A stretch of 64,000 nt of DNA from Methanoregulaceae archaeon. Lineage in GTDB: Bacteria > Armatimonadota > Fimbriimonadia > Fimbriimonadales > Fimbriimonadaceae. The notes below the pieces were generated by a model. The model was not told where the DNA came from and made no database searches. It worked only from the letters and a program-made list of their open reading frames with translations. Shown piece after piece: positions 6,840-57,041 of the stretch. The position numbers and the translations under genes were made by a program. The first letter of the stretch is position 1, and every line of letters starts with the position of its first letter. The stretch covers positions 1-64,000 of the forward strand of contig JADZEW010000008.1 in NCBI GenBank assembly GCA_020850325.1. Reading direction: 5' to 3'.

Positions 6840-6844
6840 GCTCA

Positions 6845-40000: not shown

Positions 40001-40574
40001 GGCCTCTGGCCGGAATGTGAACATCCTTGTCATGGACACCGAGGTGTATTCGAACACGGGCGGTCAGGCCTCTAAGGCGACTCCGCTGGCGGCGGTCGCC
40101 AAGTTCGCGACCGGCGGCAAGCTGGTCGGCAAGAAGGACATCGCCCTGCAGGCGATTTCCTACGGCAACGTGTACGTCGCCCGAATCGCGATGGGAGCCA
40201 GCGCCCAACAGACCTTGCAGGCATTTCGCGAGGCCGATGCTTACCCAGGCACCTCACTCGTCATCGCCTACAGCCACTGCATCGCCCATGGCATCGATAT
40301 GGAACAGGGCCTCAAGCAGCAGCACCGTGCCGTTCACTCGGGTTACTGGCCGCTGTTGCGTTACAACCCGCAGCTCCGCGAGCTCGGCGAACCGCCCTTC
40401 CAGCTCGATTCTCAGCGAGCCACCTGCAACTTCGCCGAATACACCCAAAACGAGCTTCGCTATCGGATGCTGCGGCAGACCAACCCTAGTCACGCCGACG
40501 AGCTGATGGCCATGGCCGAAGAACACATCGCCAAACGATGGATGCTGTACGAGCAACTCGCGCAGATTCGATGA
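37002..40574 (+). CDS. nifJ: Pyruvate:ferredoxin (flavodoxin) oxidoreductase, copy 2
   Basis: 1190 residues, same domain order as copy 1: TMDGNEAVAYVAYRCNEV, ferredoxin insert CVQCGNCSFVCP and CTGCGLCVQVCP, CAGCGETPY, GDGWAYDIGSGGLDHVLASG. Long blocks are identical to copy 1 (such as KNTIKIIGDDP and YGNVYVARIAMGA). The ATG overlaps the stop of the oxidoreductase gene by four bases (ATGA), so the two are translationally coupled. The pair of copies arranged head to head with a dedicated oxidoreductase may separate oxidative and reductive (pyruvate synthase) directions; inference. Confidence 0.95.
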   Translation: MTTTSAREDQSSPAVNQPQTATMDGNEAVAYVAYRCNEVCAIYPITPSSTMAEWADQWSSEGLKNLWGVVPDVIEMQSEGGAAGALHGSLQAGALTTTFTASQGLLLMIPNMFKIAGELTPTVFHVAARSIATNSLSIFGDHQDVMAIRQTGFALLASASVQEAHDMALVAQAATLASRIPFLHFFDGFRTSHEVSKLELIDDDHMRALLSEVDILAHRKRGLNPDHPSVRGTASNPDTYFQSREASNAFYLACPDIVEETLTRFAALTGRQYSIFEYYGPQDAERIIVLMGSGVETVKETVDHLSAQGDKVGLVQVRLYRPFDTKRFLECLPKTVKSIAVLDRTKEPGSLGEPLYSDVVLTLSRVSGDAPRVINGRYGLSSKEFTPAMVKAVYDELAKPEPKNHFTVGIDDDVTHLSIDFDPSFTTEDADVFRAVFHGIGSDGTVGANKNTIKIIGDDPRFFAQGYFVYDSKKSGSRTVSHVRFGKRPIRSAYLIQDAHFVACHHFGLVQKFDVLSLAAPGATFLLNCPHGPDTVWDLLPRSVQETIIQKRLRLFVIDANRVARETDMGSHTNTIMQTCFFGISGVLPRDEAVKKIKHSIEKTYGRKGREIVQRNWRAVDHTLAHLYEVVIPDTATSTVEMAPIVSPNAPERIRDFVARLMAGDGDLMPVSAMPVDGTFPSATSRWEKRNIAETIPIWDPDACVQCGNCSFVCPHSAIRAKLFHASHLEGANADMPSAPIDARGFPETRYLLQIYDEDCTGCGLCVQVCPVNHPDDAKRRAINMAPKEAGSEAAQTSMEFFEALPVNDRAAVDFSTVRGTQFLEPTFEFSGACAGCGETPYLKLLSQLFGDRMIVANATGCSSIYGGNLPTTPWAMNSEGRGPAWANSLFEDNAEFGLGMRLAADRHLSEAQSILAELEPELGTELVQSLIDQPQVLESDVRKQRVRVAELIERLKQMDSPRAQRLLSIADHLTHRSVWIVGGDGWAYDIGSGGLDHVLASGRNVNILVMDTEVYSNTGGQASKATPLAAVAKFATGGKLVGKKDIALQAISYGNVYVARIAMGASAQQTLQAFREADAYPGTSLVIAYSHCIAHGIDMEQGLKQQHRAVHSGYWPLLRYNPQLRELGEPPFQLDSQRATCNFAEYTQNELRYRMLRQTNPSHADELMAMAEEHIAKRWMLYEQLAQIR

Positions 40575-40669: not shown

Positions 40670-40745
40670 GGGGGCATAGCTCAGTTGGGAGAGCACCTGC
40701 TTTGCAAGCAGGGGGTCAGGGGTTCGAGTCCCCTTGCCTCCACCA
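40670..40745 (+). tRNA. tRNA-Ala (UGC)
   Basis: Complete cloverleaf: acceptor GGGGGCA pairs with TGCCTCC with one G-U; D arm with AGCTCAGTTGGGAGAGCA; anticodon arm CCTGC-TTTGCAA-GCAGG with anticodon TGC; T arm GGGG-TTCGAGT-CCCC. CCA is encoded at 40743-40745. Its 3' third is overlapped by the end of the convergent serine recombinase frame, so it is the probable integration site of the module to the right. Confidence 0.97.
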
Positions 40746-42269
40746 ATCTTCAGATTTCACTTTTGCGAGGCCGTTCTTGGCGGTCTCGTTTTCGTTTTGA
40801 GCCCCGGATTTGACGAGATTCAGCATCAAATCGAAGAACTCGTGGAGTTCCACCTCCAGCCTTCCGTCCACCCAAGAGGAGTTCGAACACATCAACTTGA
40901 TCAGTTCGCGCTTTTGCTCGGAATCGGCGCTCTTGAACCTGAGGTGGGCGGTGGAGGCAAGTTCGAACACCCGCATCGCTTCATCGATCAGAACAGGCTC
41001 GGTGCGGTCCAACGCGGCCAGTTCGAGCTTCATTTCGGTGACCCTCGCCTCCCACTTCGCTCGGGTCTCTCGGTAGAACTCGGCGGAGATCTCGCCTTCC
41101 ACCTTGTCGAGGTAGAGCTTCTCAAGTCTGGAGCTGATGGCTGCGCACTCGGCTCGGATCTCTCGCTCCCTCTTTGCCCGGGAACCGTGGCGATCCGCAT
41201 CGGCCTGACGGAGACCTTCCTGAATCCAGGGCAGCATCTCGCCTGGCACCGTGAGGAGTTTCAGAAGATCGGCATACGCAGCGTCGATCTTCGACTCGGC
41301 GATGTACGGGCGGCCGCAGATATCTCTCTTGCGCCCCGTGCAGTGATAGTAGGTGTATCGACCCTTCTTGACTTCCCCGGTGAGCAGATCGCCGCACTTG
41401 CACGCGATCAAGCCCCGGTAAGCAAAGGGTAGGGTACCGAACCCGGTCTTGCGGTTGCCCCTCCCCTTGCGGATATCTTGCACCCTGTCCCAGAGTTCCT
41501 TGGAGACGAGCGGCTCGTGGATCCCAAGCACTTCGCGACCGTTCCAGCGGATGATGCCGCAGTAGGCCGGTTGCTTGAGTATCTGATCTATCGCGCTCTT
41601 CGCCAAAGGATGCCTCTTCTTCGACACAAGGCCGCGCTTTCTGGCGTGCGCCACCAGCATTTCGAGGGAGTGGGCTCCGGCAGCGTACAGCTCGAAGAGT
41701 TCCCTCACCTGGTGAGCCCGCGACGGATCGGGCACGATGACCTTGCGCTTCGTCCCTGACTCCAAGGCGTTGAGGTAGCCGAGCGGCGAGTGGGTGGGAT
41801 AGATGCCTTGGGCCGCCTTCTCGTTGAGACCCTTTCGGATCTCCTCGGAGAGGTTGTCCACGTAGTTCTTCGCCATGAGGACGCGGATGCCGTGCATGAA
41901 CTTGTCCTGACTCTTCGACGACTCCCCAATGACCATGCTGTCTTTGACGAAGTGAAGCTCGACGCCCAGGTGATCCACCTTCACGTAATCCGCGAAGTTG
42001 CGATACAGCCTGTCCACTTTCTCGACAAGGATGACGTGGCCCGGATGGGACTCAAGGAAGCGCAGCATCTCGCCAAAAGCCCGGCGACCCGACTGCTTGG
42101 CCGTCTCCGCTTCGGTGAACTCGCGGACGACGTCCACCTCCTGCTCTGCGGCGTAGGTCCGTAGAAGCCGGAGTTGGGCGTCTACGCTGAACCCTTCCGC
42201 CTCCTGCTCCTTGGAGCTGACCCTGGCGTAGATAACAGCCTTTGTCCTGGCAGCGACACGCTTTCTCAT
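40716..42269 (-). CDS. Large serine recombinase 2 (reading into tRNA-Ala)
   Basis: 517 residues. Catalytic domain AVIYARVSSKEQEAEGFS with the nucleophile Ser in RVSS at about residue 19; the recombinase domain (KRHPLAKSAIDQILKQPAYCG) follows; a zinc-ribbon with CKCGDLLTGEV, HCTGRKRDICG; then a coiled-coil near 360-440. The last residues (WWRQGDSNP) are merely the tRNA-Ala 3' end read in antisense, so the native C-terminus was probably different and the frame was fused to the tRNA on integration. ATG overlaps the upstream recombinase stop (ATGA). Confidence 0.88.
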   Translation of the reverse strand: MRKRVAARTKAVIYARVSSKEQEAEGFSVDAQLRLLRTYAAEQEVDVVREFTEAETAKQSGRRAFGEMLRFLESHPGHVILVEKVDRLYRNFADYVKVDHLGVELHFVKDSMVIGESSKSQDKFMHGIRVLMAKNYVDNLSEEIRKGLNEKAAQGIYPTHSPLGYLNALESGTKRKVIVPDPSRAHQVRELFELYAAGAHSLEMLVAHARKRGLVSKKRHPLAKSAIDQILKQPAYCGIIRWNGREVLGIHEPLVSKELWDRVQDIRKGRGNRKTGFGTLPFAYRGLIACKCGDLLTGEVKKGRYTYYHCTGRKRDICGRPYIAESKIDAAYADLLKLLTVPGEMLPWIQEGLRQADADRHGSRAKREREIRAECAAISSRLEKLYLDKVEGEISAEFYRETRAKWEARVTEMKLELAALDRTEPVLIDEAMRVFELASTAHLRFKSADSEQKRELIKLMCSNSSWVDGRLEVELHEFFDLMLNLVKSGAQNENETAKNGLAKVKSEDWWRQGDSNP

Positions 42270-44383
42270 CCGATCCTCCGGCGGTTGCTCATCGAGATGG
42301 GGAGGAACTCTTCGGCGGCCTCCAACCTTATGAGGGCCGCCTTTGCCGTCTTGCGATCAAGCTTCTCGAGGGCGGCACTCAGCAACGCGGAGACCCGCTC
42401 CTGGCTGATCCCGGTATGGGCAGAAATCGCCGGTTCGGACTTGCCTTCGGCAGCCAGGATGAGAACCTGATACTCCATCGTTTTGAGTTTGGTGGCCGAG
42501 CGTTTGATCTTTGATGCTCTTCCGAACAAAGGCAGTTGGGACTGAACACGGCGGATGTGATGCTCCGCGCGCCTTGCGGCCTCACGGTGCCCCTTCATGC
42601 CCGGTACCTCTACGCCCAGCTTCTGACGTGCACGGTTGAGCAACGAGAATACGCTGGTGGGGCTGGATTCGAAGTACACCGCAATCTGGTTATAGTCCGC
42701 ATCGTCAAGCGTGTGCTTCAGCGCGGCCAGCTCTCTGGCCGTGAGGAGTGCTACGCCGTCGAGCTTGCCTGAGCGATACCGTTCCGCGCCGCGTAGAACT
42801 TCGATTTCAATCGGTTCCTCATCGAACACGAACTTGACGCGAATCCACTTGCGCTCGTCACGGGCGAAGACCTCCAGTTTCTCGATGGAGATGTGCAGCG
42901 CCTCGCGCCGCTCCGCGTCGCTCAGATACCCCCAGACTTCGGTGAAGCGGTGGAGTGCTTGCTGTGCATTTCGCACCTGATCTGTTCGCCGAGCCGAAGC
43001 AGAGAGCTGGGCCTCGATGCCAAGCTCTTCCTCCAAGAGAGCTTGAGTAGCTTCCTCCAAGCCTTGGATTTGCTTCCTAGCGGTGGCGTTCGAAAGAACG
43101 CCGGAGGCGATGGCATCGACAATGCGCCCGATTTTGACCTGGGTCTCCTGCAGTGTGGAGCGGATCTTGACGAGCCTGCTATGCAGTTCGCGATCTTGTC
43201 TACGGATTAGGGACTCGATCTTATCCTCGATCTGGGACTGCATTTCCGGGGAACGGGCGATTACGCCCAGTTGGGCAACGACGAGCTCTTCAAGCACCTT
43301 GGCCGAGATGTACACGTGAGAGCCGTCGTCGGAGGTCCCATTGCCAAGGCAACGGTAGCCGGGCGACTCGGTGTGGAACGAGCCGTTTAGCCGCCTTCTG
43401 CAATGGCCACAATAGGCGATCCCGTTGAAGAGGCGGAAGGGTTGCGTGTGGGCAACGCCCTTAAGCCTCTTCCGGTTCCGCTCCAGACGATCCATGATTT
43501 GGGCGAGCACCGACTCGTCGTAGAACCGGTCCTCGTAGTGAAGTCCGGGCGCGAGCGAGCCGTCTGGCTGGCGCACCTGACCGACGTGCGTGGGATTCGT
43601 CAGCACGAGCGCGACCGTGTTGTTCTTCCAACGCCCGATGGTTCGCTTGTGGGGGACGCCCTCGCGGTTGAGCATGTTGGCAATGGCCTGCATACTTGTT
43701 CCCGACAGATAAAGATCCTTGATGCGGAGGACGACCTCGCGCTCAACGGCCTCAGGGACGATGTTGGTTCGTCCCCCAGGGCATTCGGACGCCACCTGCC
43801 TTCTCCAGCCGTAGGGCACCGTGCCAAGGTAGTAGCCATCCCTTCGCTTGCAATCCAAGTTGCGCTTGATGTTCTCGCTAATCTGGTGCCGTTGCAGCTC
43901 GGCGACCCCCGCGATGACGCCTTGGGCAAAGAGCCCCTCGCTCGTAGTGTCGAACGACCCGGTGACGAATACGAACTGGATTCCCCTCGGCTTCATGATC
44001 TCGGAGTACAACGCCAAGTGCCCCAGATGGTCCCGATAGATGCGGTCAGGATGGTAGGCGGCCACATGGGTGAACTCCCCGTTGGTGAGCCGCTGGATCA
44101 GTTCGAAGAGCCCTTTGCGGTCCCGGGGCCGTCGGGCCGTCGCCCAAGGTTTTGGGCCCGAACCTCCGCTTTTGCCTTCGTCGGTGAAGATCTCGTAGGT
44201 ATAGCCTCCCTTGCCGAACCTCTTGTCCAACTCCTGAAGCACCATCACGGGCTGGTTCTCGAGCGAGATTCCGTCATCAGCTTGCTTCATCGTCGAGACC
44301 CGACGGTAGATGGCGACGTGAGGAACGCTCACGCCTCGTCCCCTCCGAAGAGGCTCAGCTGGGTTAACGGCGGTATTCGACAT
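42266..44383 (-). CDS. Large serine recombinase 1
   Basis: 705 residues. Resolvase-type catalytic domain HVAIYRRVSTMKQADDGIS (nucleophile Ser in RVST near residue 29), YHPDRIYRD, then a recombinase domain (GTSMQAIANMLNREGVPHKRT), a zinc-ribbon (YCGHCRRRLNG), a coiled-coil (380-470) and an extra C-terminal part of two helix-turn-helix-like regions (AEGKSEPAISAHTGISQERV). ATG at 44383 follows TAATAT by 6 nt within an AT-rich patch; a GTG at 44332 overlapping the upstream small frame (GTGA) is the alternative. It is translationally coupled to recombinase 2, which suggests both act together, as in two-recombinase integration modules. Confidence 0.9.
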   Translation of the reverse strand: MSNTAVNPAEPLRRGRGVSVPHVAIYRRVSTMKQADDGISLENQPVMVLQELDKRFGKGGYTYEIFTDEGKSGGSGPKPWATARRPRDRKGLFELIQRLTNGEFTHVAAYHPDRIYRDHLGHLALYSEIMKPRGIQFVFVTGSFDTTSEGLFAQGVIAGVAELQRHQISENIKRNLDCKRRDGYYLGTVPYGWRRQVASECPGGRTNIVPEAVEREVVLRIKDLYLSGTSMQAIANMLNREGVPHKRTIGRWKNNTVALVLTNPTHVGQVRQPDGSLAPGLHYEDRFYDESVLAQIMDRLERNRKRLKGVAHTQPFRLFNGIAYCGHCRRRLNGSFHTESPGYRCLGNGTSDDGSHVYISAKVLEELVVAQLGVIARSPEMQSQIEDKIESLIRRQDRELHSRLVKIRSTLQETQVKIGRIVDAIASGVLSNATARKQIQGLEEATQALLEEELGIEAQLSASARRTDQVRNAQQALHRFTEVWGYLSDAERREALHISIEKLEVFARDERKWIRVKFVFDEEPIEIEVLRGAERYRSGKLDGVALLTARELAALKHTLDDADYNQIAVYFESSPTSVFSLLNRARQKLGVEVPGMKGHREAARRAEHHIRRVQSQLPLFGRASKIKRSATKLKTMEYQVLILAAEGKSEPAISAHTGISQERVSALLSAALEKLDRKTAKAALIRLEAAEEFLPISMSNRRRIG

Positions 44384-45160: not shown

Positions 45161-46063
45161 TTACAAGTTAAGCAACGCTTTAATGGAGAGACGACCAATG
45201 CTCCTTTCCCCCTTTATATACAGATATCTGCCATCAAATGACGTGGCAAGCAGACCGACACCTTCCGACCCTCCCTCAGGCGTACTTGGAATACTAAGTT
45301 TTATCACGGGAGTCGTCAACCGTGTGGAAAGATTGACCTTAAAGAGATACCCTACCGCCTGCGGCTCCCCATCGCCCAACCGAAAAGCCGTCTTGCTCAA
45401 CAACAATTCATCTGCAATTGTGCTTCTCTTGCCCCCAGGTGTCTGCCCAATTTGCCACAAGCCACCGACAAAGCAAACAGTATTTGCGTCAACAAACAAG
45501 AGGTCGTTACATCCAGGTGCGATCGCAGCAAGTCCGATTCGCTCAATTTCTGGCGTTATCACCTCACCCCTCTCCAACCACTTCCCGTCGGCATAACAAA
45601 ACGTCCTTAAGAGCCCCGCGCTCATGGGCCTCTCAAATGTCACTACTGTGTCTCCCGCAGCGTTGACCCCAATACCACACCAGTTATCAAACGTAGAGCG
45701 AGAAAAAATGCCCCTCTTCGTTACCACCAAAAGCCCACCACCAACACGTATTAGTGAGTCATTCTGCATAAACACTGTGGTTAATGGAGAGGCTAATGAC
45801 ACTTGTCCTCGCGAAACGGTCAGCTTACGATAGGTCCATTCAATACCCGACTTCGCACTATATCTAAGTGGCACCATACCCGGCGAAGGAGGCACTGTCT
45901 TTACCAACACACCGTCCTGCCCGAAAATGGAAACATAACCAGCCTCACTTACTGAGCATACACCTGGTGCATCCGCAACGGGGAGCAGACGTGAAAATGT
46001 GTGCATGCTCCAGTCTGGATCAAATGCCAGCTGTTGGGATAGGAAACAAACAAGCGCTATCAT
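45161..46063 (-). CDS. Exported protein in immunity position of Rhs tip 2
   Basis: 300 residues with a short signal-like N-terminus (MIALVCFLSQQLAFDP). The rest consists of short beta repeats (PGVCSVSEAGYVSIFGQDG, LIRVGGGLLVVTKRG, LLATSFDGRYLYIKGE), probably a propeller. The ATG overlaps the stop of tip 2 (ATGA), so both are made together, as expected for an immunity protein; a periplasmic or surface position would then match the toxin target. The gene is clearly richer in A and T than the flanking metabolic genes. No named family recognised. Confidence 0.55.
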   Translation of the reverse strand: MIALVCFLSQQLAFDPDWSMHTFSRLLPVADAPGVCSVSEAGYVSIFGQDGVLVKTVPPSPGMVPLRYSAKSGIEWTYRKLTVSRGQVSLASPLTTVFMQNDSLIRVGGGLLVVTKRGIFSRSTFDNWCGIGVNAAGDTVVTFERPMSAGLLRTFCYADGKWLERGEVITPEIERIGLAAIAPGCNDLLFVDANTVCFVGGLWQIGQTPGGKRSTIADELLLSKTAFRLGDGEPQAVGYLFKVNLSTRLTTPVIKLSIPSTPEGGSEGVGLLATSFDGRYLYIKGERSIGRLSIKALLNL

Positions 46064-47142
46064 GATTTAGTTATGCGACTGCATTCTTTGCCGCATTGAT
46101 CCTCCCCATAGTTTGCTTTACAGATGCAACAACCGAGCTTGTAGACAAAATCTAACGACCGGCTCATGTCAATGCCTGGTATCGGCTCTTCCCCAGCTGG
46201 ATGCCCCAATGTAGAACAGTGTGCTAGCTCGTGGTAGAGGATGGCACAGGGCGTCTCGATCTGAATCCCCGGCTCCGCTAGATTAGTGAATGCCCGATCG
46301 CAAATCACAACACTACACGCGCATTTTCGCCCCGTTGGCCCCTTATAAATGTCACTGCACTCTGGACCTGGCGGACCGTACTCAACTAGTTCGCATCGGT
46401 CCTTAATGCCTGCGGGAAGGGGCTGCGGACCCGGAGGATAGGCAATCCCCCAAAGGTTCTTTGTTGTCTTGCATGGATTAGGGCATTTGGATGGCCAAGA
46501 CGGTAAGTCGTTATCCGGTCCCCCGCACCGAACACAAACCCTGTTCGAACCATCATTTGCGCCTGTTCCAGAGCAATAGCGTTGGATTACGTCAAGGAAC
46601 CAATCAACATCCGAGTCAAGAACAGGGTATGGGAAGCCAAAGCCTTTTCGCTTCATGCACTCCTTTACTTTGGTTCTATCCAGAGAGCCGGGTGCCATCT
46701 TGCGACAACAATCTGAGAGTTTGGCCCCCTTAACTCCGTCACAGCCAATGAATTCTGGGGCGAGGCCAGAGGCATCTGCATAGGATACGGGGGAGCTATG
46801 AGCGTATCTGAGTTGCGGCTGATAGGGCCAGAATGAGTCAACCGATGACCAGCTTGCATGCTTTTGGGCTAAATGCCTGCGTCTAACATATGACAAGGCA
46901 TCAGTTTTTCGATATCCCCATCCGCCGACCCATTGAAACGTCGGATCGCTGCCAATGCCCGTCTTGCTCACTTGCTGGCCGTAACCAGCCCAGCGGTACG
47001 TGTTCTCGAGAGTCCCGTTCGTCTTGATCGTTCCTACGACCGAGCCCAAGGCATCCAGTTGATAGTCCACCGGTCGTGCTCCGCTTGATGATGTTTCACC
47101 CAGGATCTGCCCGTTGACAGTGTTGTAGGCTCTCCAAGCCAT
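46060..47142 (-). CDS. Rhs tip protein 2 with HExxH metallopeptidase-like C-terminus
   Basis: 360 residues. Residues 1-78 (MAWRAYNTVNGQILGETSSS through WGYR) are nearly identical to tip 1 and correspond to the end of an Rhs core (LDALGSVVGTI, YRWAGYGQQ). The family motif RxRTYxxxxGRWxxxDP is eroded (RRRHLAQKHASWSSVDS). The variable part contains about 18 Cys and HELAHCSTLGH: His304, Glu305, His308 and His314, with the metzincin spacing although Gly is shifted. Its ATG overlaps the stop of core 2 as TGATG. Probably a Zn-protease toxin or surface protease; activity not shown. Confidence 0.7.
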   Translation of the reverse strand: MAWRAYNTVNGQILGETSSSGARPVDYQLDALGSVVGTIKTNGTLENTYRWAGYGQQVSKTGIGSDPTFQWVGGWGYRKTDALSYVRRRHLAQKHASWSSVDSFWPYQPQLRYAHSSPVSYADASGLAPEFIGCDGVKGAKLSDCCRKMAPGSLDRTKVKECMKRKGFGFPYPVLDSDVDWFLDVIQRYCSGTGANDGSNRVCVRCGGPDNDLPSWPSKCPNPCKTTKNLWGIAYPPGPQPLPAGIKDRCELVEYGPPGPECSDIYKGPTGRKCACSVVICDRAFTNLAEPGIQIETPCAILYHELAHCSTLGHPAGEEPIPGIDMSRSLDFVYKLGCCICKANYGEDQCGKECSRITKS

Positions 47143-48362
47143 CAGGTCATCTCCTCCATATCGAGCCGAGTGCCGACCAGGTTCAGCCCTGTGCACTTGC
47201 CGTTCTCGTCATATTGGTAGGCTTGCGCGAACCCGATGGCATCGGTCTGCCCGCTCTGCCTGCCCACCGGATCGAAGCTGTACGTGCTGGTGCCGCCCCA
47301 GTCCACCATCGTCGTTCTTCGGCCCACTTGGTCGAAGGCAAACGTCGCGATCTTGCCATCGGGGAACTGAGTGACGGTGTTCTGGCCCGCCGCGTCAAAG
47401 GTGTAGCTGCGCACCCGGTTTGCAGCGTCCGCCATCGTGACGATCCGGTTTGCGAGGTCGTAGCCATATTGCCTGGCGTTTTCGCCAAGTTGGTTTTGCA
47501 CGACGGCCAGGCGGCCCACGGCGTCGTAAACGTTGGTGACGTAGCCCCCGTTGGCGTCCCTGGTTGAGACCAATCTGCTCTGCTGATCGAACGCATAGGT
47601 GGTCCGGTACCCCATGGCGTCGATCGTCGCTTCAGGAAGATTTCTGTTGCTGAAGTAGGAGGTTGTCGTCAGCTTGCCGTTGGCGTCCTGCACCACGTTG
47701 CGGTTGCCCGCTGAGTCATAGCTGTAGCTGGTCCGGTATCCAAGCTGGTCTTGGCTTGCTGAAAGCTGGCCCGCCGCGTCGAAGATCTGGGTCGTCCTGA
47801 ATCCCAGCGGGGAAACCGAGGCGATCTGCCTTCCCACTTTGTCGTAGACGCTGGTGGCGAGGTTCCCTTGAGGGTCCATGCGGGCCACGAGATCCCGGTT
47901 GTCGTAGACGCTCGTCCAAACGTTGCCTCTCGGGTCCTGCACCCCGGTGAGGCGGCCAGCGAAGTCGTAGCTGTAGCTCGTCCTGTATCCCAGGGCGTTC
48001 TCGTCCGCCACTTTGCGGTTTCCGGTGTAATGGACCGTCGTGAGGTTGCCCAACGCGTCCATCATCCCCGACGGGCGGTTCATGTTGTCGAAGTTGTAAG
48101 TCGTCACGTAGCCGAGCGGGTTCATCTCCGTCACCCGGCTCTTGAAGCGGTTGTAGGTGTAGCTGGTTCGCTCGTTCAGGGGGTTCGCCACCGCCACGAG
48201 GAGGCAGGAATCCCAAACGTAGGTCGTTCTCGCCCCATTGAGGTCCACCGAGGCGACGAGGTGGTCCCCCGCGTCGTACACCATCGATCTGGCGACCGAA
48301 TCCCCCGGATGCTGCACGCTCGTCCTTCGCCGCGATTCCCATTGTCCAATGGCACGAAACAT
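47142..48362 (-). CDS. Truncated Rhs core 2 (displaced YD-repeat cassette)
   Basis: 406 residues, only YD repeats (TTYVWDSCLLVAVANPLNER, YGYDLANRIVTMADAANRVR, FAFDQVGRRTTMVDWGG). It lacks the N-terminal half of core 1. It has its own ribosome site AAGGAGAG 7 nt before ATG 48362 and a short unrelated N-terminus (MFRAIGQWESRRRTS). It ends at TGATG shared with tip 2. Such truncated cassettes downstream of a full Rhs locus are commonly interpreted as spare tips that can recombine with the main gene. Confidence 0.75.
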   Translation of the reverse strand: MFRAIGQWESRRRTSVQHPGDSVARSMVYDAGDHLVASVDLNGARTTYVWDSCLLVAVANPLNERTSYTYNRFKSRVTEMNPLGYVTTYNFDNMNRPSGMMDALGNLTTVHYTGNRKVADENALGYRTSYSYDFAGRLTGVQDPRGNVWTSVYDNRDLVARMDPQGNLATSVYDKVGRQIASVSPLGFRTTQIFDAAGQLSASQDQLGYRTSYSYDSAGNRNVVQDANGKLTTTSYFSNRNLPEATIDAMGYRTTYAFDQQSRLVSTRDANGGYVTNVYDAVGRLAVVQNQLGENARQYGYDLANRIVTMADAANRVRSYTFDAAGQNTVTQFPDGKIATFAFDQVGRRTTMVDWGGTSTYSFDPVGRQSGQTDAIGFAQAYQYDENGKCTGLNLVGTRLDMEEMT

Positions 48363-48381
48363 CTTCAAGTCTCTCCTTCCT

Positions 48382-48867
48382 TTAATGCACAATCACTCTG
48401 CCATTGACATCCTGGACTGCCGTTGTTGTGCCGTCAACAACATATCCTCCCTCAAACATTGAGTCCCAGGAGACGACAAATGCGTTGCCTGTCCAAGACC
48501 ACCTGAGCCTTCCTGAATTCCTGATCACTCCTCTATCATGTAGTGCCTCCAAACCTCTACGGAGTAGAGTCGCTTCAACACCGTGAACAAGACTCAGGCG
48601 GCTGCTTACCACTGGTTCTCCAGAAGCACTTAGGTCTAAAACGCTGGATGGCTGGCCAGGAATCAATGCTTCCCATCGCCCTTCTCCTGGCAGCTCTCTG
48701 AAGACAATCTTCCTACTAGCAGGTATACTACTCACATGCTCAACGAGATATCTACCTAAGGTAATAGGAACACTTTCTCTCGACGACGTTCGATAGGCGT
48801 GCAGCAGAAATGCTATGATTACTGTTAAGAGCGCTACGCTACCTACACAAATGGACATTTGTCGCAT
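48382..48867 (-). CDS. Membrane-anchored protein in immunity position of Rhs tip 1
   Basis: 161 residues from the ATG at 48867 (an ATG at 48858 is also possible). One membrane helix (ICVGSVALLTVIIAFLLHAY) followed by a small soluble domain (VFRELPGEGRWEALIPG, LRRGLEALHDRGVIRNSGRL, WSWTGNAFVVSWDSMFEGG). It overlaps the 3' end of tip 1 by about 25 bp on the same strand. Position, anchor and AT-richer DNA suggest an immunity protein; no family recognised. Confidence 0.5.
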   Translation of the reverse strand: MRQMSICVGSVALLTVIIAFLLHAYRTSSRESVPITLGRYLVEHVSSIPASRKIVFRELPGEGRWEALIPGQPSSVLDLSASGEPVVSSRLSLVHGVEATLLRRGLEALHDRGVIRNSGRLRWSWTGNAFVVSWDSMFEGGYVVDGTTTAVQDVNGRVIVH

Positions 48868-49694
48868 ACCTTCGGTAGTTCCTTGCATCCGTATGACCGT
48901 TTCATTTTGTAGCACGAGTCGCAAACATACTTCTCATACTCTTTCACGCATGCCCACTTCTCTACGAGCGACAGTTTTAAGCACTCCTTAACCATGTGCT
49001 TTCTCATGCACTCGATGCTGATCATATGCGCCTTGCACTCTGACGTATTGGGCCATTCAAACTGCGTAGTGCATGGTCCATCTTTTCCAGGAGTGCACTT
49101 GCAATCCTTCACGTGAGACTCTTCATGGCGTCGGATGCATAGCCAGATGCCAAAGCGGTCGTATGGGTGATAGTAGACGCATGGCATCTTGACTCCGTTG
49201 CAACAGGTGACCGTTCCCAAGGTTCCCGCCTTAAACCAAGATTGTTGCCGCGCCCACTCGCAGGGTCCGCCCGGGGTGGAAGCACACGGTGCGTGGCAAC
49301 CTATCCACCAGATCGAAAGACCGGATGGATCTGCGAATGTAGCTGGGCTTGCGCTTGCGTACCCATAACTAGGTTCCAGCGGCCACATAGGATCAATTGC
49401 AGTCCACCTTCCAGATTGTGCAGTGTAGGTGCGCTCCCGTACGTAGACAAGACCACTCGATCTGTACCCCCAACTGCCAACCCACAGGAACCTGGGATCG
49501 CTTCCCAGTCCCGTTTTGTTCACTTGCTGGCCGTAGCCTGCATAGCGATAGGTGTTCTCGAGGGTCCCGTTCGTCTTGATCGTTCCCACAACCGAGCCTA
49601 GGGCATCAAGCTCGTAGTCAAGCGGCCGTGCGCCAGAGGAAGAGGTTTCGCCCAGTATCTGCCCGTTGACCGTGTTGTAAGCTCTCCAAGCCAT
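48843..49694 (-). CDS. Rhs tip protein 1 with HExxH motif
   Basis: 283 residues. Residues 1-78 are the conserved adapter shared with tip 2; YVRERTYTAQSGRWTAIDPMWP is an intact Rhs core terminal motif; GYASASPATFADPSGLS follows as in many Rhs proteins. The C-terminal 155 residues are unique and contain 23 Cys, many in CxxC pairs, with RRHEESHVKD: His190, Glu191, His194, a Zn-peptidase-like signature. The start ATG shares its A with the TGA of core 1 (TGATG), so expression depends on coupled re-initiation or a -1 shift. Confidence 0.75.
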   Translation of the reverse strand: MAWRAYNTVNGQILGETSSSGARPLDYELDALGSVVGTIKTNGTLENTYRYAGYGQQVNKTGLGSDPRFLWVGSWGYRSSGLVYVRERTYTAQSGRWTAIDPMWPLEPSYGYASASPATFADPSGLSIWWIGCHAPCASTPGGPCEWARQQSWFKAGTLGTVTCCNGVKMPCVYYHPYDRFGIWLCIRRHEESHVKDCKCTPGKDGPCTTQFEWPNTSECKAHMISIECMRKHMVKECLKLSLVEKWACVKEYEKYVCDSCYKMKRSYGCKELPKVCDKCPFV

Positions 49695-52600
49695 CAGGTG
49701 ACGTCCCCCAGATAGTCAATGCCGTCCCACACGATCGTGGTCGTCGCCCCGTTCAAGGCAACCTCGGTGCGCTTCAGATTGTCCCCATCATAAACATAGC
49801 TTGAAACCTGGGCACCAGAATCCAGCCGTGTCATCCGGTTCTCTTCGTCGTACACCATTGTCAGCGCTTGGCCCGTGTCCAGGGTCAGATTTCCTGGTGC
49901 GCTATACGTGCACGTCGCGAGAACCGCGTCCGCCACATACGTCACAATACGCGTCGCCGGGTCATAGGTGTAATCAGTTACGAGCGGAGCCGCCGTGTTT
50001 TCCCAGCGCGTCCGGTTGTCCGTCCCATCGTACACGTGCGTCATCCGGTAACCGCCCGTACCCGCCCGGTGCTCTCCAACCAAGCGGTCGCGCGCATCGT
50101 TCACATAGGTCGTGATCGAGCCGTCCTTCTCCAGAATCGTCTGCTTGTTGTTAACCTCGTCATATGTGTAGCTGAACCTCTCAAGCAGGCTGCCGCCGGG
50201 CGCAGTGTCGATGATCGAGACGACGTTGCCATTGCCATCGTAAGAAAAGTCTCGCAGAACTCCCGAAGGCAGGGTCACCCGCTGTTGCCTGCCGAGCCCG
50301 TCATACGACATCGAGTAAGTGCGGCTCGTGAAATCCTGGAAGACCGTGTTCCGCCCGTCCGCGTCGTGCGTGTACGTGCGAATCCCTCCGAAGGGCTCGA
50401 CGAGCGTGGTTCTCCGGTCGAGGGCGTCGTAGCCGTATCCTTGAGAGAGCCCCTGTTCGGTCTTGCCACTCATCCGGTTCAGCGCGTCGAACGAGTAGCT
50501 GCAGATCCCCACGGAGTCGAGCATCGTCGTTCGGTTGGACACCTGATCGAACGCATAAGTGACGCGTGAACCGCTATGGTAGACAACGCTCACCACTCGG
50601 GAAAGGGCGTCGTGGGTATAGGTCGTAAACTTGCCATCTGCCAGCTGACGGGTGATCTTGTTGCCCACCCCATCGAATCCATAGCTCGTGATGTTGCCGA
50701 TCTGATCAGTGATCGCCACCATCTGCGAGCGGCCATCGTAAGCCATCGTGATGAAGTAGCCGCGCTGGTCTTGAATGACGGTATGGCGACCGTCTTTGTC
50801 GAAGCTGTTCGTGACGATATAGCCGAGCGGATCCTGAGTTGCGATGCCGCGATCCAAGGCGTCGAAGGTGGTCGTCCAGATGTAGCCTCTCGCGTTGAGC
50901 AGGGCGGTTTGGTTGCCAACAGCATCGAAGCTGTACGAGGTGGAATACCCTCTTCCATCAGTCTGGACCGTCATCCGGCCAACGGCGTCGAACGCCCTTA
51001 TGATGGTGTTGCCGACGGCGTCGATCATCGTGGTGGCCCGGTTCACCGGGTCATACAGCATCGTCGAGACATAACCCAGCGGCGTGATCATGCTCACCGT
51101 TCGCCCGATCCCGTCGTAGCTCGTGGTGTGAAGGTTGCCAAGGGCGTCTTGGGTTGCGATATTGCGACCGTTGGCATCGAAGACGTGGCTCGTCAGATAT
51201 CCCAAGGCGTTCTGAACGGCTTTGACTCTTCCAGCGAGGTCGTAGATAGAGGTCGTGATGTAGCCGCGAGCATTCTGAATCGCCGTCTGCTGTCCGGCCA
51301 AGTCATAGGTATACGAGGTGAGGAAGCCGAGTGCGTCTTGAACTGCGGCGAGGCGGTTCGAGTTGACTCCATAGATCGAGGTGGTTACATATCCTCTCGC
51401 GTCCCGTGAGGTCTGGCGATTGGACGCCCCATCATAAGTGAAGGTATTCCGGAACCCCAAGGGGTCGATCGTCGCCGAAAGTTGTCCCGCTCCGTCCCAG
51501 ACCTGGGTGGAAACAAATCCGAGTGGCGTCTGACTCGCTTGTCTTCTGCCCAGTTTGTCCCAGATGTTGGTCGCGATATTGCCCAGAGCATCCATCTGGG
51601 TGACGACCTGGCTCTTGGCATCGAGTCCATATGTCGTAATGTAGCCTCTCGCGTTCTGAGTTGCGATCAACCGGCTGCCGAAGTCGTAGCTGTAACTCGA
51701 CCGGTTGCCCAAGGCGTCGACATCGGCGATCTTCCGGTGGTAGAGGTCGTAGACGATCGTCGAACGGTTCCCCAAGGCGTCGACCGTCTCCGTCTGGTAC
51801 GCCATGTTGTCAAAGACGAACGTGGTGACGAACCCGAGCGCGTTCTGCACGCTGGTCCGCTTCTTGAACCGGTCATAGGTGTACGACGTCCTAAAGCCCA
51901 ATGGGTCGACCTCCGCCACCAGCATACAGGAGTCGTAGATCCAGCGGCGCTGCTCGCCCATCGCGTTGGTCATCGAGACCATGTTGTCGGCGACGTCATA
52001 ACCATAGCTGGTGATCCGGCCAAGCTGGTCGATCATCGTAGTGACCCGGCCGTACACGTCGTGCTGATATGAGACGATTCCGCCATCGCTGAACAGCGTG
52101 CTCGCAAGGTTGCCGAACCCGTCGTAGGCGTGGGTGGTGAAGAGCCCTCTCCCGTCCTGGCTGCTCAGCAGCGTCCCGTCCCCGTTCCAGGCGTAGGTGG
52201 TCCGCCTGCCCAAGGGGTCGATCCGCGCCGTCATCCGCTTGCTTGCGTCGTACGTGAAGCTCCAAACATTCCCCAGAGCGTCCGTCATCGTCGTGAGGTT
52301 CAGGCTTGCATCGTACGCATAGGTCGTCGCGTACCCAAGAGCGTCGAAGGCCACCAGCGGCTGCCCCGAGCCGTTGTAGCTGACGCTGGAGACGGTGCCG
52401 TAAGGCTCGATCCGCTTGGTCTGATATCCGTTGCTGTCGTAGGCGAAGCTCGTCGTGTACCCTTCGGGGTGGATGATCCTCTCGATCCCGTGGCCGCCCG
52501 CGATGTAGGTGGTGATGGCACCGCTGGGGTCTTGGCGCTGGGAGCCGCTCCAGGTCATCGGCCCGCCGTAGGCGTACGTCCACACCCCCGAACCTGCCGC

Positions 52601-53488
52601 CACGCTCGCCACCCGGTTTGCTCCATCGTAGGCGTATGTCGTGGCAAACCCTCTCGGATCTTCGATCCGGGTGAGCAGGTCCCCCGTGTAGGAGTTCTTC
52701 GTCGTGCAGCCAAGCGGAGTCGTCAGGGTCGTCAACTGCCGCGAGCCGTCGTACATCATCGTCCAGCGACGGCCGCCCCAGTCCTCGATGTGGTCGAGCA
52801 GGCTGGTCGGAGAACCGCCCGCCGTGTATGCGAAGGTGACGAGCCGCCCTCCCGGGACCTCGATGCTCTTCAGCAGGTTCGTTTCCGGGCTCGTCCCGTA
52901 CGTGAAGGTGTGCCGGTTTCCGCTGGGGTCTTCCACCCGTCCGACCTGGTACCTGACCGGACTGCCGCCCTGGTTCTTGTCGTACACCATCTTCTTCCCG
53001 TCGGGGAAGGTCTCGATGAAGGCGTCCAGGTTCGAGTTGTAGACGAGGCTGGTTCCTGCGTACTGGGTGGAGACCCCGCTGTACGTCGTCGTGAAACCGC
53101 TCGTGGAACCGGCCGTGAACTCGTACACCTTCTCGTCGCCTCTCACCACCTGGGCCGTGCTTCCAAAGTCGTCGTCCGTCTTCAGCACGTAACAGTTCAC
53201 GCTCGCCGAGCGCTTCTTGCCATATCCCCCGTCCGTGCTGGACCGCGAGTTATAGAAAAGGTTGATCTCGAGGTCGAACCCCTTGGCTTTGAGCAGGATG
53301 TCGGGGTCGACGAGCAAAGCTCCCGATACCGGGTCGGGGTGCGGAAAGTGGGGGTTGTGCAAAACCGGGTCCACAACCGAGCCGTGGCTCTGAGCGCTCT
53401 GCCGCTGAGTCCCGCCCGCCGAAGGAGAACGATCCCAAGGAGAAGGAGCGCTCGCGTCGAAAGATCTGGCGGGGGACGAAGGGGTCAT
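49694..53488 (-). CDS. Rhs core protein 1 (YD-repeat shell without tip)
   Basis: 1264 residues. A polar N-terminus (MTPSSPARSFDASAPSPWDR) without signal peptide leads to an HNPHFPHPDPVSGALLVDPD segment and an N-terminal FDLEINLFYNSRSS domain, followed by several dozen YD repeats (GYATTYAYDASLNLTTMTDA and similar). It ends GATTTIVWDGIDYLGDVT and TGA exactly where an ordinary Rhs would continue into its terminal core; that piece is made by the next gene. The start follows the Cys-rich peptide gene by 6 bp. It presumably forms a cocoon around the tip, with export route unknown. Confidence 0.85.
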   Translation of the reverse strand: MTPSSPARSFDASAPSPWDRSPSAGGTQRQSAQSHGSVVDPVLHNPHFPHPDPVSGALLVDPDILLKAKGFDLEINLFYNSRSSTDGGYGKKRSASVNCYVLKTDDDFGSTAQVVRGDEKVYEFTAGSTSGFTTTYSGVSTQYAGTSLVYNSNLDAFIETFPDGKKMVYDKNQGGSPVRYQVGRVEDPSGNRHTFTYGTSPETNLLKSIEVPGGRLVTFAYTAGGSPTSLLDHIEDWGGRRWTMMYDGSRQLTTLTTPLGCTTKNSYTGDLLTRIEDPRGFATTYAYDGANRVASVAAGSGVWTYAYGGPMTWSGSQRQDPSGAITTYIAGGHGIERIIHPEGYTTSFAYDSNGYQTKRIEPYGTVSSVSYNGSGQPLVAFDALGYATTYAYDASLNLTTMTDALGNVWSFTYDASKRMTARIDPLGRRTTYAWNGDGTLLSSQDGRGLFTTHAYDGFGNLASTLFSDGGIVSYQHDVYGRVTTMIDQLGRITSYGYDVADNMVSMTNAMGEQRRWIYDSCMLVAEVDPLGFRTSYTYDRFKKRTSVQNALGFVTTFVFDNMAYQTETVDALGNRSTIVYDLYHRKIADVDALGNRSSYSYDFGSRLIATQNARGYITTYGLDAKSQVVTQMDALGNIATNIWDKLGRRQASQTPLGFVSTQVWDGAGQLSATIDPLGFRNTFTYDGASNRQTSRDARGYVTTSIYGVNSNRLAAVQDALGFLTSYTYDLAGQQTAIQNARGYITTSIYDLAGRVKAVQNALGYLTSHVFDANGRNIATQDALGNLHTTSYDGIGRTVSMITPLGYVSTMLYDPVNRATTMIDAVGNTIIRAFDAVGRMTVQTDGRGYSTSYSFDAVGNQTALLNARGYIWTTTFDALDRGIATQDPLGYIVTNSFDKDGRHTVIQDQRGYFITMAYDGRSQMVAITDQIGNITSYGFDGVGNKITRQLADGKFTTYTHDALSRVVSVVYHSGSRVTYAFDQVSNRTTMLDSVGICSYSFDALNRMSGKTEQGLSQGYGYDALDRRTTLVEPFGGIRTYTHDADGRNTVFQDFTSRTYSMSYDGLGRQQRVTLPSGVLRDFSYDGNGNVVSIIDTAPGGSLLERFSYTYDEVNNKQTILEKDGSITTYVNDARDRLVGEHRAGTGGYRMTHVYDGTDNRTRWENTAAPLVTDYTYDPATRIVTYVADAVLATCTYSAPGNLTLDTGQALTMVYDEENRMTRLDSGAQVSSYVYDGDNLKRTEVALNGATTTIVWDGIDYLGDVT

Positions 53489-53494
53489 GGCACG

Positions 53495-53770
53495 CTAGAT
53501 GGCTTTACAAGTGGGTGCAGCAACAAGATCCGCCGACGAGGGAACATAGGGCGGCAGGACATCAACCCCACCGCCACAGCAATCCGAGCAGTCGATGGGG
53601 GAGAGTGCGACGTTGCCGCAGGTGTTGGTCGCGCTTCCAGGGTCATTCTGCGCCCAATACCAATATCCAGAACCAGGATCCGGCTTGCCACCGAACGGGC
53701 TCTTATCTGGACCAGACCCAACTCCGCAACTGCAAGCTGACGGTGTACTGAAAGGCTTGTTGCTACTCAT
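53495..53770 (-). CDS. 91-residue Cys-rich peptide upstream of Rhs core
   Basis: 91 residues starting MSSNKPFSTPSACSCGVGSG. Seven Cys at 13, 15, 51, 61, 64, 65 and 88, many Gly, Pro, Ser and an aromatic YWYW cluster at 36-39; no signal peptide, no helix propensity. A strong GGAGG site stands 8 nt before the ATG, and the ATG overlaps the IscU-like gene (ATGA). Possible roles: adapter or linker for Rhs, metal/Fe-S client of the IscU-like protein, or a modified-peptide precursor. No family recognised. Confidence 0.65.
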   Translation of the reverse strand: MSSNKPFSTPSACSCGVGSGPDKSPFGGKPDPGSGYWYWAQNDPGSATNTCGNVALSPIDCSDCCGGGVDVLPPYVPSSADLVAAPTCKAI

Positions 53771-54126
53771 TTCATATCCTCCGAGAAAGCTCTCTTGATG
53801 GCGTCGACGACCAGCGCCGGACAATGCCCTTTGCCTTCCGGCAGACCACCAAGAAGCAGGGCAATATCGCGAGCATCCAGCGCGAGGGCTTGACCGATCG
53901 ACTTGCCTTTCAGGAATTCGGCGGCGAAGCTCGCGCAGGCGACAGCAGCCGGGCAACCGTACGTTTCGTAAGAGCCTCGCAGAATGGTTTGGCCTTCGAC
54001 TACAAACCAAAGGAGAGCGTAAGGACCGCCTCCAGGATCGCCAGCCTGTCCGAAACGGTTAGCACCTTCAAGGGCACCCGTATTGCGCGGGTTCAGCGTG
54101 TGATCAAGAACTGCGGCGCTGAACAC
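53767..54126 (-). CDS. IscU/NifU-N-like protein lacking the first ligand Cys
   Basis: 119 residues with the Fe-S scaffold fold: DHTLNPRNTGAL, YETYGCPAAVACAS, FLKGKSIGQAL, GHCPALVVDAIK. Two of the three IscU cluster Cys are present (Cys58, Cys102, with His101), but the first, normally in PxCGD, is Gly in GDPGGGPYA. It is therefore unlikely to be the housekeeping scaffold. It starts with GTG and overlaps the Cys-rich peptide gene by four bases, tying it to the Rhs locus. Confidence 0.8.
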   Translation of the reverse strand: MFSAAVLDHTLNPRNTGALEGANRFGQAGDPGGGPYALLWFVVEGQTILRGSYETYGCPAAVACASFAAEFLKGKSIGQALALDARDIALLLGGLPEGKGHCPALVVDAIKRAFSEDMK

Positions 54127-54209: not shown

Positions 54210-57041
54210 TCATAGGCGATGAGTTATGCCCGCATCTTGCATCCAGTCGGTACGCATCCTGTGCCACGTCTCGCTTCGCCCATCGAATCGTTCGATATGG
54301 TCCAAGCAGTCCTTTGCGGTCTTGAGATCGCCGAAGGCGCGGGCCATCGAAAAGAGTTCGACCACGATGGCGAGATCTCCCGGCTTCATTGCAATCGCGG
54401 CACGTAAGTTCTCGCCCGCTTCTCGGTAGTTGCCGAGCCTGGCAAGTGCAAGCGCGAGATTGATGCGGAGCCCTGGGCCAAGGATGCCCAATTCGATGCT
54501 GGAGAAGTGTCCGGAGATGTCTTGCCCCATGACCGCACGGTAGGCCTCAACCGCTTCGGAGGGCCGGTCGGCGTCGGCCAGAAATTGGCCCTTCCGGTAA
54601 AGAAGTTCGGGATCGCCAGGGCATGCCTCAAGCCCAGCCAGAACCGTCTGCATTCCTTCCTCCTTCTTGCACTGCAGGTTTTGGGACACCGCCAGCAACG
54701 CGTACGCTTTCCTGAGGATCGTCTCCCCGGCCCGGCAACGCTGGATGCTTCGTGAGAGGAACTCCTCCGCCTCCACATACTCCTTGTTGTAGTGATGGGT
54801 CATCCCGATGTTGAACAGCACGAACGGGTGGTCCGGCTTTTCCTTGAGTTCGAGCGCAAGGAGTTTGGCATCACGCTCCCGTTTTCGCGTTTGCCCCTCT
54901 TCACTAGTGTCGTAGCCCGAGTGGAGCACCTCGACGTTCAGGTAGCCAACGTCCCCGACCGTCTCTCTGATGGATGGCAGAATCTGTTCGTGTATCCGGT
55001 GTTCCCACTCCAGCGTAGGCTTGTTGCGAAAGAGTTTAACATGGTCCACAACCGTTCCGAATGTGGGATCGTCGGTGACGAACCGGACTTTCATGTAGAA
55101 CCCGGCGAGGTCTGGCGGCGCGTTGAGGACGGCGTGGATCATTCCCTCACCAGTAGCCCACGGCAGCGTGTCATCCGCGTCCATCCAAAACAGCCACTTG
55201 CCGGTTGCGTACTTCATGGACTCGTTGCGAGCGGCGGCGAAGTCGTCACACCACTTGAACTTGTGGACTTCAGCGCCATGCTCCTTGGCGATCTCAATCG
55301 TCTTGTCGGTCGAGCCGGTGTCGACGACGACGATCTGGTTGAAGAACGGCTTCGCTGATTTCAGGCAGTCGCCTAAGACGCGCTCCTCGTTCTTCGCGAT
55401 CATGAAGAGACTGATGTCCGCTCGCTTCACAAGCTTGGCGAGTTCCTTCTCCACCTTGTTGGGTCGGCGTTCTGGCTTGAATTTGATCGGGTCTGGATTC
55501 TCAAGTCCTGGCAAGTGAGAAACGAAGCCGGTCTCGACGTCCCGCTTCCATTTGGCTTCGTAGTACCGCTGGTTGCTGGCAAACATGGCGAACTTGTCCT
55601 CGGGACTCCGTTCCAAACTCTGATTGCCCTCATGGTGGACGAACGCCCGGTTAGAAATGAGCATTCGGTATCCAGCCCTCCGTAAACGGTAGCAGAAGTC
55701 GTTGTCCTCGAACATGCCGATGCCAAAGCCCGTGTCGAACGGCCCCACCTCGTTCCAGACCGACCGCTTGACTGCAAGACAGAACCCCACGAGCATATCC
55801 GTTTCCGTATCATCAACCTCGCGTGTTGCAAAGTCTTCGGCGAAGAGTTCGATCCCGGTCTTCTGGGTGTAGGTCACGCCGGTCCGCTGAAAATGGCCCA
55901 CATAGTTGCTGCGAGGACCTGCTGCCGCGACGGTGCCGCCCTGGCCCAATGAATCCACTAAGCGGATGAGTCCCGCCTTTGGCACGATCGTGTCGCTGTT
56001 CAGCAGCACTACCACCTCGCCAGACGCCTCAGAGACGCCACGATTGCAGGTTGCCGCGAACCCGAAGTTCTCGGGATTTCGAACAAGGCGCGCGAAGGGG
56101 TATCGCTCCACGACTTCTGGCGCGTGGTCCGGCGACTTGTCGTCGACCACGATCACCTCCGAGATGAGGCCCTGACAACGCTGGAGACTGTCAAGGCAGG
56201 CTTCGATGTCCTCTGGTCCACCGTAAAGAGGGATGACTACAGATAATCGCGGCCAGATGCCTTCTGGCTCAACTGGTTCTGGGTGAAGAGGGTCATCGCC
56301 GCCGTTTGCAGCGAGGTATGCCTGCCAAGCTGGTATTAGGACTTCAGGCAATGGAATTCGCTCGGCAAAGCCGTAACACTCGGGATGCGTGGGATGCAGG
56401 TTCATGAGCAACCTCTCGGAATCCCATTGATCCCAGATGCGTTCCTTCCATCCTTCCACTACTTCGTCTTTGTGGGACCAAGACCCAATCTTCTGAAGGA
56501 TACGTTTGTCCGGCCCACAATAGCTTAGGTGATGGAGCACCCCTAACTCGGCAGTCAAGGCGAGAGGCCGTTTCCCTTGATATTCCCTGATGAACTTGTG
56601 GTCGACTGTTTGAGGGTTGATGAGGAGGACCGGACGAATGCGCTCCCGAGGGCGGATCACATACTCCGGGCTCTTCCAATATGTGTCCATGTCAACATGA
56701 ACCTCGTCGGACAACTCGGTTGCCGCGATTTCGAGCAGCGTCCCAAGTAGCTCGGGCGACAGCACCTCGTCGGTGTCGGGGATGAGAAGACGATTGATCC
56801 CCTGCGCGCGGGCCCACTGAATCGTCGCGGCGCGGTGCTCACTCTCGCCATCCCACGAACCCTCAATGATCTCAGCGCCTAGGGCCTTTATCGCCTTTCG
56901 CGCCGCTTGCCACTTCCCAGCCTTGCCCGACCATGCCTTGCGGTTCAGGAACACAGTCGCTGGGATGTCTGGCCCCAAAGACCTGAGGACAGCCTCAAGG
57001 TAGAGGACGTCATCGTGACAGACTAGGGCGGCACGCAGCAT
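54210..57041 (-). CDS. Multidomain glycosyltransferase (two GT2 domains plus TPR)
   Basis: 943 residues. Residues 1-250: GT-A-like domain (LLIPDTDEVLSPELLG gives a DxD); 265-500: GT2 domain RLSVVIPLYGGPEDIEACLD, VVVLLNSDTIVPKAG, MFEDNDFCYRLRRAGYR; 545-700: second GT2 of the SunS-like type, SLFMIAKNEERVLGDCLKSA, VVDTGSTDKTIE, MDADDTLPW; 700-943: TPR repeats. Soluble, no membrane segments. It lies 83 bp upstream of the IscU-like gene on the same strand and could be transcribed with it. ATG 57041 follows TACAAT by 5 nt. SunS-type enzymes glycosylate peptide Cys, so the Cys-rich peptide is a conceivable acceptor. Confidence 0.88.
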   Translation of the reverse strand: MLRAALVCHDDVLYLEAVLRSLGPDIPATVFLNRKAWSGKAGKWQAARKAIKALGAEIIEGSWDGESEHRAATIQWARAQGINRLLIPDTDEVLSPELLGTLLEIAATELSDEVHVDMDTYWKSPEYVIRPRERIRPVLLINPQTVDHKFIREYQGKRPLALTAELGVLHHLSYCGPDKRILQKIGSWSHKDEVVEGWKERIWDQWDSERLLMNLHPTHPECYGFAERIPLPEVLIPAWQAYLAANGGDDPLHPEPVEPEGIWPRLSVVIPLYGGPEDIEACLDSLQRCQGLISEVIVVDDKSPDHAPEVVERYPFARLVRNPENFGFAATCNRGVSEASGEVVVLLNSDTIVPKAGLIRLVDSLGQGGTVAAAGPRSNYVGHFQRTGVTYTQKTGIELFAEDFATREVDDTETDMLVGFCLAVKRSVWNEVGPFDTGFGIGMFEDNDFCYRLRRAGYRMLISNRAFVHHEGNQSLERSPEDKFAMFASNQRYYEAKWKRDVETGFVSHLPGLENPDPIKFKPERRPNKVEKELAKLVKRADISLFMIAKNEERVLGDCLKSAKPFFNQIVVVDTGSTDKTIEIAKEHGAEVHKFKWCDDFAAARNESMKYATGKWLFWMDADDTLPWATGEGMIHAVLNAPPDLAGFYMKVRFVTDDPTFGTVVDHVKLFRNKPTLEWEHRIHEQILPSIRETVGDVGYLNVEVLHSGYDTSEEGQTRKRERDAKLLALELKEKPDHPFVLFNIGMTHHYNKEYVEAEEFLSRSIQRCRAGETILRKAYALLAVSQNLQCKKEEGMQTVLAGLEACPGDPELLYRKGQFLADADRPSEAVEAYRAVMGQDISGHFSSIELGILGPGLRINLALALARLGNYREAGENLRAAIAMKPGDLAIVVELFSMARAFGDLKTAKDCLDHIERFDGRSETWHRMRTDWMQDAGITHRL

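Follow-up and report, generated by a model that had tools for sequence, protein, structure and literature searches.

The window analysed here, 64,000 nucleotides of a Fimbriimonadaceae-type Armatimonadota assembly (GCA_020850325.1, contig JADZEW010000008.1, positions 1 to 64,000; deposited as Methanoregulaceae archaeon), carries on its minus strand an operon in which a relative of the iron-sulphur (Fe-S) scaffold IscU is encoded among the genes of an Rhs polymorphic toxin. The order of the genes is a GT2/TPR glycosyltransferase, the IscU-like protein, a 91-aa cysteine-rich peptide, an Rhs core and Cys-rich tips. Comparison with related loci suggests, with a probability that we put at about one half, that these genes form a dedicated accessory or maturation module for a class of Rhs toxins with Cys-rich, disulfide-type tips, in which IscU has been given a new role as a helper acting through one thiol, and one spare thiol per component is modified or joined. 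Polymorphic toxins of this class, with maturation genes of their own, appear not to have been described before; PADLOC gave no match, and no report linking NifU or IscU to Rhs was found in the open full-text literature.

Association of IscU-like genes with Rhs loci

The IscU-like gene (53767..54126, minus strand; 119 aa, GTG start) matches Pfam NifU_N (PF01592, E 6e-22). The open reading frame (ORF) coordinates bear out the layout given in a preliminary description of this DNA, in that the IscU-like ORF shares four bases with that of the peptide (53495..53770, minus strand; 91 aa, rich in Cys, Gly and Pro, 7 Cys, ATG start) and the Rhs core (49694..53488, minus strand; 1264 aa) begins 6 bp past the peptide. 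Residues are numbered below as in the window IscU-like protein, where the ligand cysteines fall at positions 33, 58 and 102, position 33 being the equivalent of IscU Cys37.

Judged from gene neighbourhoods, the association between IscU-like and Rhs genes is solid and reaches far beyond the window. When the window IscU-like protein served as the sole query of a family-level search, in which Rhs was not a condition, homologues were found in 31 of 61 genomes, and the surrounding DNA showed almost every time the order IscU-like gene, one small Cys/Gly-rich ORF, Rhs core and tips. With a 34-sequence profile searched across the phylum, the association extended to other families and classes of Armatimonadota; the close named relatives are Armatimonadota metagenome-assembled genomes labelled Fimbriimonadaceae, Chthonomonadaceae or Chthonomonas. 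Proteins were counted as Rhs-linked when an Rhs core or tip followed within 1.6 kb on the same strand. Of the 90 IscU-like proteins tallied in the end, 63 are Rhs-linked, 7 run off contig edges and 20 are without Rhs; 12 of these 20 are hits from the cross-phylum scan and ordinary Fe-S scaffolds that were added as a comparison. Once the hits from the cross-phylum scan are set aside, an Rhs core or tip is directly downstream in 63/80; that scan used a 7-sequence alignment which detects only close relatives, and other phyla are under-sampled. Neither outcome named in the preliminary description as refuting it was obtained: most homologues adjoin Rhs genes, and the closest relative of the window locus (L060, 95% identical) also lacks the first ligand Cys rather than encoding an intact IscU. 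No IscU-like gene was present in any of the control Rhs loci.

Outside the Armatimonadota, the gene set recurs on plasmid pPL62-2 of Planctomyces sp. SH-PL62. On this plasmid the IscU-like protein has Gln at position 33, a protein of 1336 aa is related to the window glycosyltransferase (E 5e-144), and the Rhs gene encodes a phospholipase A2-like tip containing 11 Cys and a core with the same conserved Cys as the window core; just upstream of the Rhs gene is a Cys/Gly-rich reading frame. The gene order differs, so what is conserved there is co-occurrence and not order. That all these genes are mobile cargo, accumulated near recombinases and Rhs arrays with no functional coupling, is strongly disfavoured. 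Two large serine-recombinase genes (40716-42269 and 42266-44383, minus strand) do adjoin the window Rhs tips, and several relatives (L067, L068, L198, L217, L232) have integrase-like genes upstream of the module, but the same order and tight spacing recur across the phylum, the Cys-rich tips are specific to this class and the gene set is found again on the planctomycete plasmid.

Fold and ligand residues of the IscU-like protein

In this family the predicted IscU fold is retained and the canonical ligand set is not. The AlphaFold2 (AF2) model of the window protein has a mean predicted local distance difference test score (pLDDT) of 94, and its leading Protein Data Bank (PDB) fold matches in Foldseek are IscU structures, the top one being an A. 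fulgidus IscS-IscU complex (TM 0.89), with SufU further down. By sequence score the protein falls under every cut-off of the NCBIfam NifU/IscU/SufU equivalogs (TIGR01999, 60 vs 192 bits; TIGR03419, 91 vs 188). It has Gly33, as first described, and Pro at the equivalent of Asp35, and it retains Cys58 and Cys102.

Across the 63 Rhs-linked proteins the first ligand Cys is missing in 61, position 33 being occupied by Asp (31), Glu (21), Gly (4), Gln (2), Cys (2) and Ala, His or Arg (1 each). The loss noted in the preliminary description is nearly general without being invariable. Gly33 is restricted to a few, mostly close relatives of the window locus, and an acidic residue is the family norm. The Asp35 equivalent is Pro in 52/63 and Cys102 is retained in 26/63, while Cys58 (codon at 53953..53955, minus strand) is present in 63/63 and no other Cys is invariant. 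Compared with IscU, the NifU N-terminal domain and SufU, the family therefore has in common the fold, the length, the second ligand Cys and the GGLPxxK region; it differs in the loss of the first ligand Cys and Asp35, in a third Cys that is not conserved, in the alteration of the LPPVK chaperone motif to LPEGK, and in a gene that lies outside any isc or suf operon.

The home genome contains four degenerate IscU-like copies (in the window and on contigs C26, C39 and C24) and one ordinary scaffold with its Cys intact, in a suf-type operon on contig C16. Contigs C26 and C39 both stop 28 bases past the IscU-like stop codon, as expected if the assembly broke at repeated peptide/Rhs sequence. Upstream of the C39 copy is the gene for the same glycosyltransferase, and the C24 copy runs straight into a Cys-rich tip gene. 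Because the first ligand Cys and Asp35 are lost, the third Cys is often lost and a normal SufU is encoded elsewhere in the genome, the IscU-like protein would no longer build Fe-S clusters. In a phylogenetic tree the degenerate clade leaves out all intact scaffolds with weak support (0.53), and we therefore do not claim a single origin.

Three further cases concern these residues. Locus L063 (8453-8863) encodes the only convincing member that keeps Cys33, and has a different peptide (244 aa, 13 Cys) and tips with only about 2.5% Cys. Locus L085 was considered as a family member and rejected, having a canonical PPCGD motif and lying 1049 bp from a different Rhs gene with 1.1% Cys and a core without the conserved Cys. 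Lastly, Acidobacteria-type IscS and NifU-like pairs (L249-L252) keep Cys33 and lack Cys102; here, at a distance from Rhs, the loss of ligands has taken another route.

Cysteines of the tips, peptides and cores

Tips of this Rhs class (149) were compared with 50 complete tips from IscU-free Rhs loci in ten module-bearing genomes; the former set takes in orphan tips identified by their Rhs-C domain, and the result thus concerns the Rhs class and not the neighbour of each tip. The median Cys content was 8.2% (n = 149) against 0.3% (n = 50; Mann-Whitney p 4e-26), and 90% of the tips of this class exceeded 4% Cys compared with 0% of controls. Moreover, the number of cysteines is usually odd. Among tips with more than 4% Cys, odd counts were found in 109/134 after clustering at 90% identity (p 1e-13) and in 72/93 after clustering at 25% identity (p 1e-7), the relatedness of tips making these p-values approximate. 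The preference for odd counts is most marked among the tips richest in Cys (27 of 28 tips above 10% Cys) and peaks when tips are cut at the Rhs-C boundary. Neither Cys-poor tips nor Rhs cores (odd in 15/33) show any parity bias.

The peptides follow the same rule. A counterpart of the window peptide ORF is found in about 40 loci, and the Cys count is odd in 38/42 peptides, or 28/31 after clustering; peptide ORFs were picked by a score favouring Cys, Gly and Pro, so their Cys richness comes partly from selection, while their parity does not. The peptides have a small number of conserved Cys in common, and in the window peptide the last Cys lies 4 residues from the C-terminus. In four loci (L075, L080 at 6513-7154, L221 and L224) the peptide slot holds a longer Cys-containing protein that apparently ends in a Hint (intein-like) domain; L080, the only one of the four scored for Hint, gave a Pfam E of 0.001, below the cut-off. 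The simple reading of an odd count would be Cys pairs plus one spare thiol. Glycocins show such an arrangement: of their 5 or 7 Cys, all but one pair up in two or three disulfides, and the remaining Cys is S-glycosylated (PMC12457901).

The window Rhs core contains YD/RHS repeats (PF05593, E 6e-80; TIGR01643), and no signal peptide was seen in it. Alignment of 56 cores downstream of IscU-like genes revealed a single Cys column, present in 54, within the motif P-x-G-C-x-T (Cys261 in the window; codon at 52706..52708, minus strand). The two cores without it are that of the rejected L085 and one divergent core. By comparison, 12 of 14 control cores lack this Cys, and a comparable motif occurs in only 1-2 of the 14. 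This class resembles Rhs/YD-repeat polymorphic toxins in general in its YD-repeat shell, an Rhs_assc_core ending in DPxG, variable tips and orphan tip arrays. It differs from typical Rhs toxins in that core and tip are usually separate genes, the core Cys is near-invariant, the tips have 8-13% Cys with odd counts, and accessory glycosyltransferase, IscU-like and peptide genes are added. Many members of the family show this split into core and tip genes, and arrays of orphan tips occur often (L130-L169). In a bacterial teneurin-like Rhs protein, a disulfide joins the toxin domain to the plug (PMC13018210). That protein likewise has a YD shell; however, it is a single polypeptide, its Cys lies in the plug and not at P-x-G-C-x-T, and no IscU-like partner was reported.

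Several tips carry motifs of known enzymes. HExxH is present in 29/154 tips, compared with 0.5 expected in shuffles; the metzincin-like zinc motif HExxHxxGxxH in 8/154 (L078, L080, L081, L166, L214, L226, L228, L068); and a phospholipase A2-like CxxHDxC-type motif in 9/154 (L083, L084, L132, L144, L154, L165, L168, L169, L274). Both window tips are of the HExxH kind. Tip gene 1 (48843..49694, minus strand; 283 aa) encodes an Rhs-C domain and a 158-aa tip with 19 Cys and HEESH, and tip gene 2 (46060..47196, minus strand; 378 aa) a 234-aa tip with 21 Cys and HELAH. Tip 1 scores above the cut-off for Rhs_assc_core (TIGR03696, 40.6 vs 32.5 bits) and tip 2 below it (17.7 bits). The AF2 model of tip 1 (pLDDT 83) had no PDB fold match, so the zincin reading stands on motifs only. 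These motifs suggest that extracellular-type, disulfide-rich enzymes are delivered by Rhs shells.

The preliminary description had proposed that peptide and tips share a need for thiol or metal chemistry. Since Cys-rich tips occur only with this Rhs class, odd counts are seen in both tips and peptides, and the core Cys is near-invariant, that proposal is now strongly supported. Its more specific suggestion of metal loading or oxidation of the tip before export is one of several possibilities. The IscU-like protein could still be a metal or Fe-S carrier, with Asp or Glu33, Cys58 and the peptide cysteines holding zinc, iron or a cluster for loading into the Cys-rich HExxH metallo-tips before export. 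We consider this unlikely. It would fit the acidic residue at position 33 in 52/63 proteins, the retention of Cys102 in 26/63, the intact fold, the excess of HExxH tips over shuffles and the few conserved Cys shared by the peptides, but it is at odds with the replacement of Asp35 by Pro in 52/63, the change of LPPVK to LPEGK and the invariance of Cys58 alone; moreover, many tips are not metalloenzyme-like, and the odd-Cys rule would be left unexplained.

The glycosyltransferase

The first gene of the window operon (54210..57041, minus strand) encodes a 943-aa glycosyltransferase with two GT2 regions (GT2 and GT2_4) and TPR repeats in Pfam. Its C-terminal glycosyltransferase domain (residues 539-769) matches GmaR (E 1e-23) and SunS (E 6e-23) in the PDB. 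The SunS equivalog TIGR04195 is hit at E 1e-27 but with 97 bits, short of its cut-off of 350, and S-glycosylation is for this reason something that we infer. In roughly half of the loci the gene for this enzyme immediately precedes the IscU-like gene on the same strand; in five genomes where it does not, a full-length copy is found at the other end of the locus, immediately beyond the tips. Only two full-length copies are present in the home genome, and each of them immediately precedes an IscU-like gene.

As in the glycocin systems (SunS/ThuS), a SunS-like domain is found beside a small peptide, which in most cases has 3, 5 or 7 Cys and has a Cys close to its C-terminus. The window enzyme differs in its extra GT2 and TPR regions and its score under the SunS cut-off, and the genes belong to an Rhs operon that also encodes an IscU-like protein. 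No glycocin exporter (C39 peptidase ABC), leader or thioredoxin-like gene was noted among the window ORFs, for which no systematic search was made. GmaR, a flagellin glycosyltransferase, is the best PDB sequence match of the domain, and no link to flagellin genes was seen at the window locus.

With the glycosyltransferase in mind, the module might be mainly a protein-glycosylation operon, in which the IscU-like protein performs no thiol chemistry and serves only a structural purpose, as chaperone or adaptor of peptide, Rhs core or glycosyltransferase. We regard this as rather unlikely. The strong ligand loss in the IscU-like family and a glycosyltransferase dedicated to the module are consistent with it, as is the position of the IscU-like genes of L209 and the planctomycete L274 amid glycosyltransferase genes; the presence of Cys58 in every Rhs-linked protein despite great divergence is however hard to explain without a thiol function or a buried structural role.

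Proposed maturation of the toxin

The dedicated glycosyltransferase and the parity rule, both absent from the preliminary description, widen the options to S-glycosylation or disulfide tethering. In the maturation module that we favour, Cys58, the sole invariant thiol of the IscU-like protein, would help to handle a cysteine of the toxin components. Less certainly, each tip and each peptide would keep one Cys outside its internal disulfides, and this spare thiol would be used once, being either S-glycosylated by the SunS/GmaR-like enzyme or joined to core Cys261. In this way the toxin would be matured, or kept inside the shell until its release into an oxidising target compartment. More tentatively, these thiols may form a relay comprising Cys58 of the IscU-like protein, Cys261 of the shell and the spare Cys of peptide and tip, one of them capped by the dedicated S-glycosyltransferase, by which the toxin is held together or activated.

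A number of points weigh against this scheme. With Asp or Glu at position 33, the IscU-like protein might still bind metal. The glycosyltransferase, below the SunS equivalog cut-off, could be an O-glycosyltransferase, and one module-bearing genome (G044) gave no match to it. Roughly 19% of the Cys-rich tips contain an even number of Cys, and families of related tips are not fully independent of one another. Glycosylation, disulfide state, export and toxicity are all proposed from sequence.

If the scheme is correct, an essential Fe-S scaffold would have been recruited to another job with one thiol kept, and odd cysteines would be a simple sequence rule predicting chemical modification. A thiol relay, if true, would mean that polymorphic toxins of Armatimonadota and Planctomycetota share a new pathway of post-translational maturation. 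The module also offers an expressible system for testing S-glycosylation against disulfide tethering of Rhs toxins.

Other features of the window

The core gene and tip gene 1 are separate in the window and overlap by 1 nt at 49694. Between the two tip genes lie a candidate immunity gene with one predicted N-terminal hydrophobic segment (48382..48924, minus strand; assigned by position and hydropathy only) and a partial second Rhs core (47142..48392, minus strand; 416 aa). A further candidate immunity gene, assigned by position only, comes after tip 2 (45161..46063, minus strand). Across the family small ORFs follow most tips, with only a weak trend to hydrophobic N-termini; the localisation trend of these candidate immunity proteins did not hold up across thresholds, with p 0.03 at one of them and 0.4 at others. 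No phage-tail or extracellular contractile injection system (eCIS)-type sheath (PF04984) was found in the home genome. Elsewhere in the window, two paralogous pyruvate:ferredoxin-type oxidoreductase genes (31320-34961 and 36843-40574) lie close together on opposite strands.
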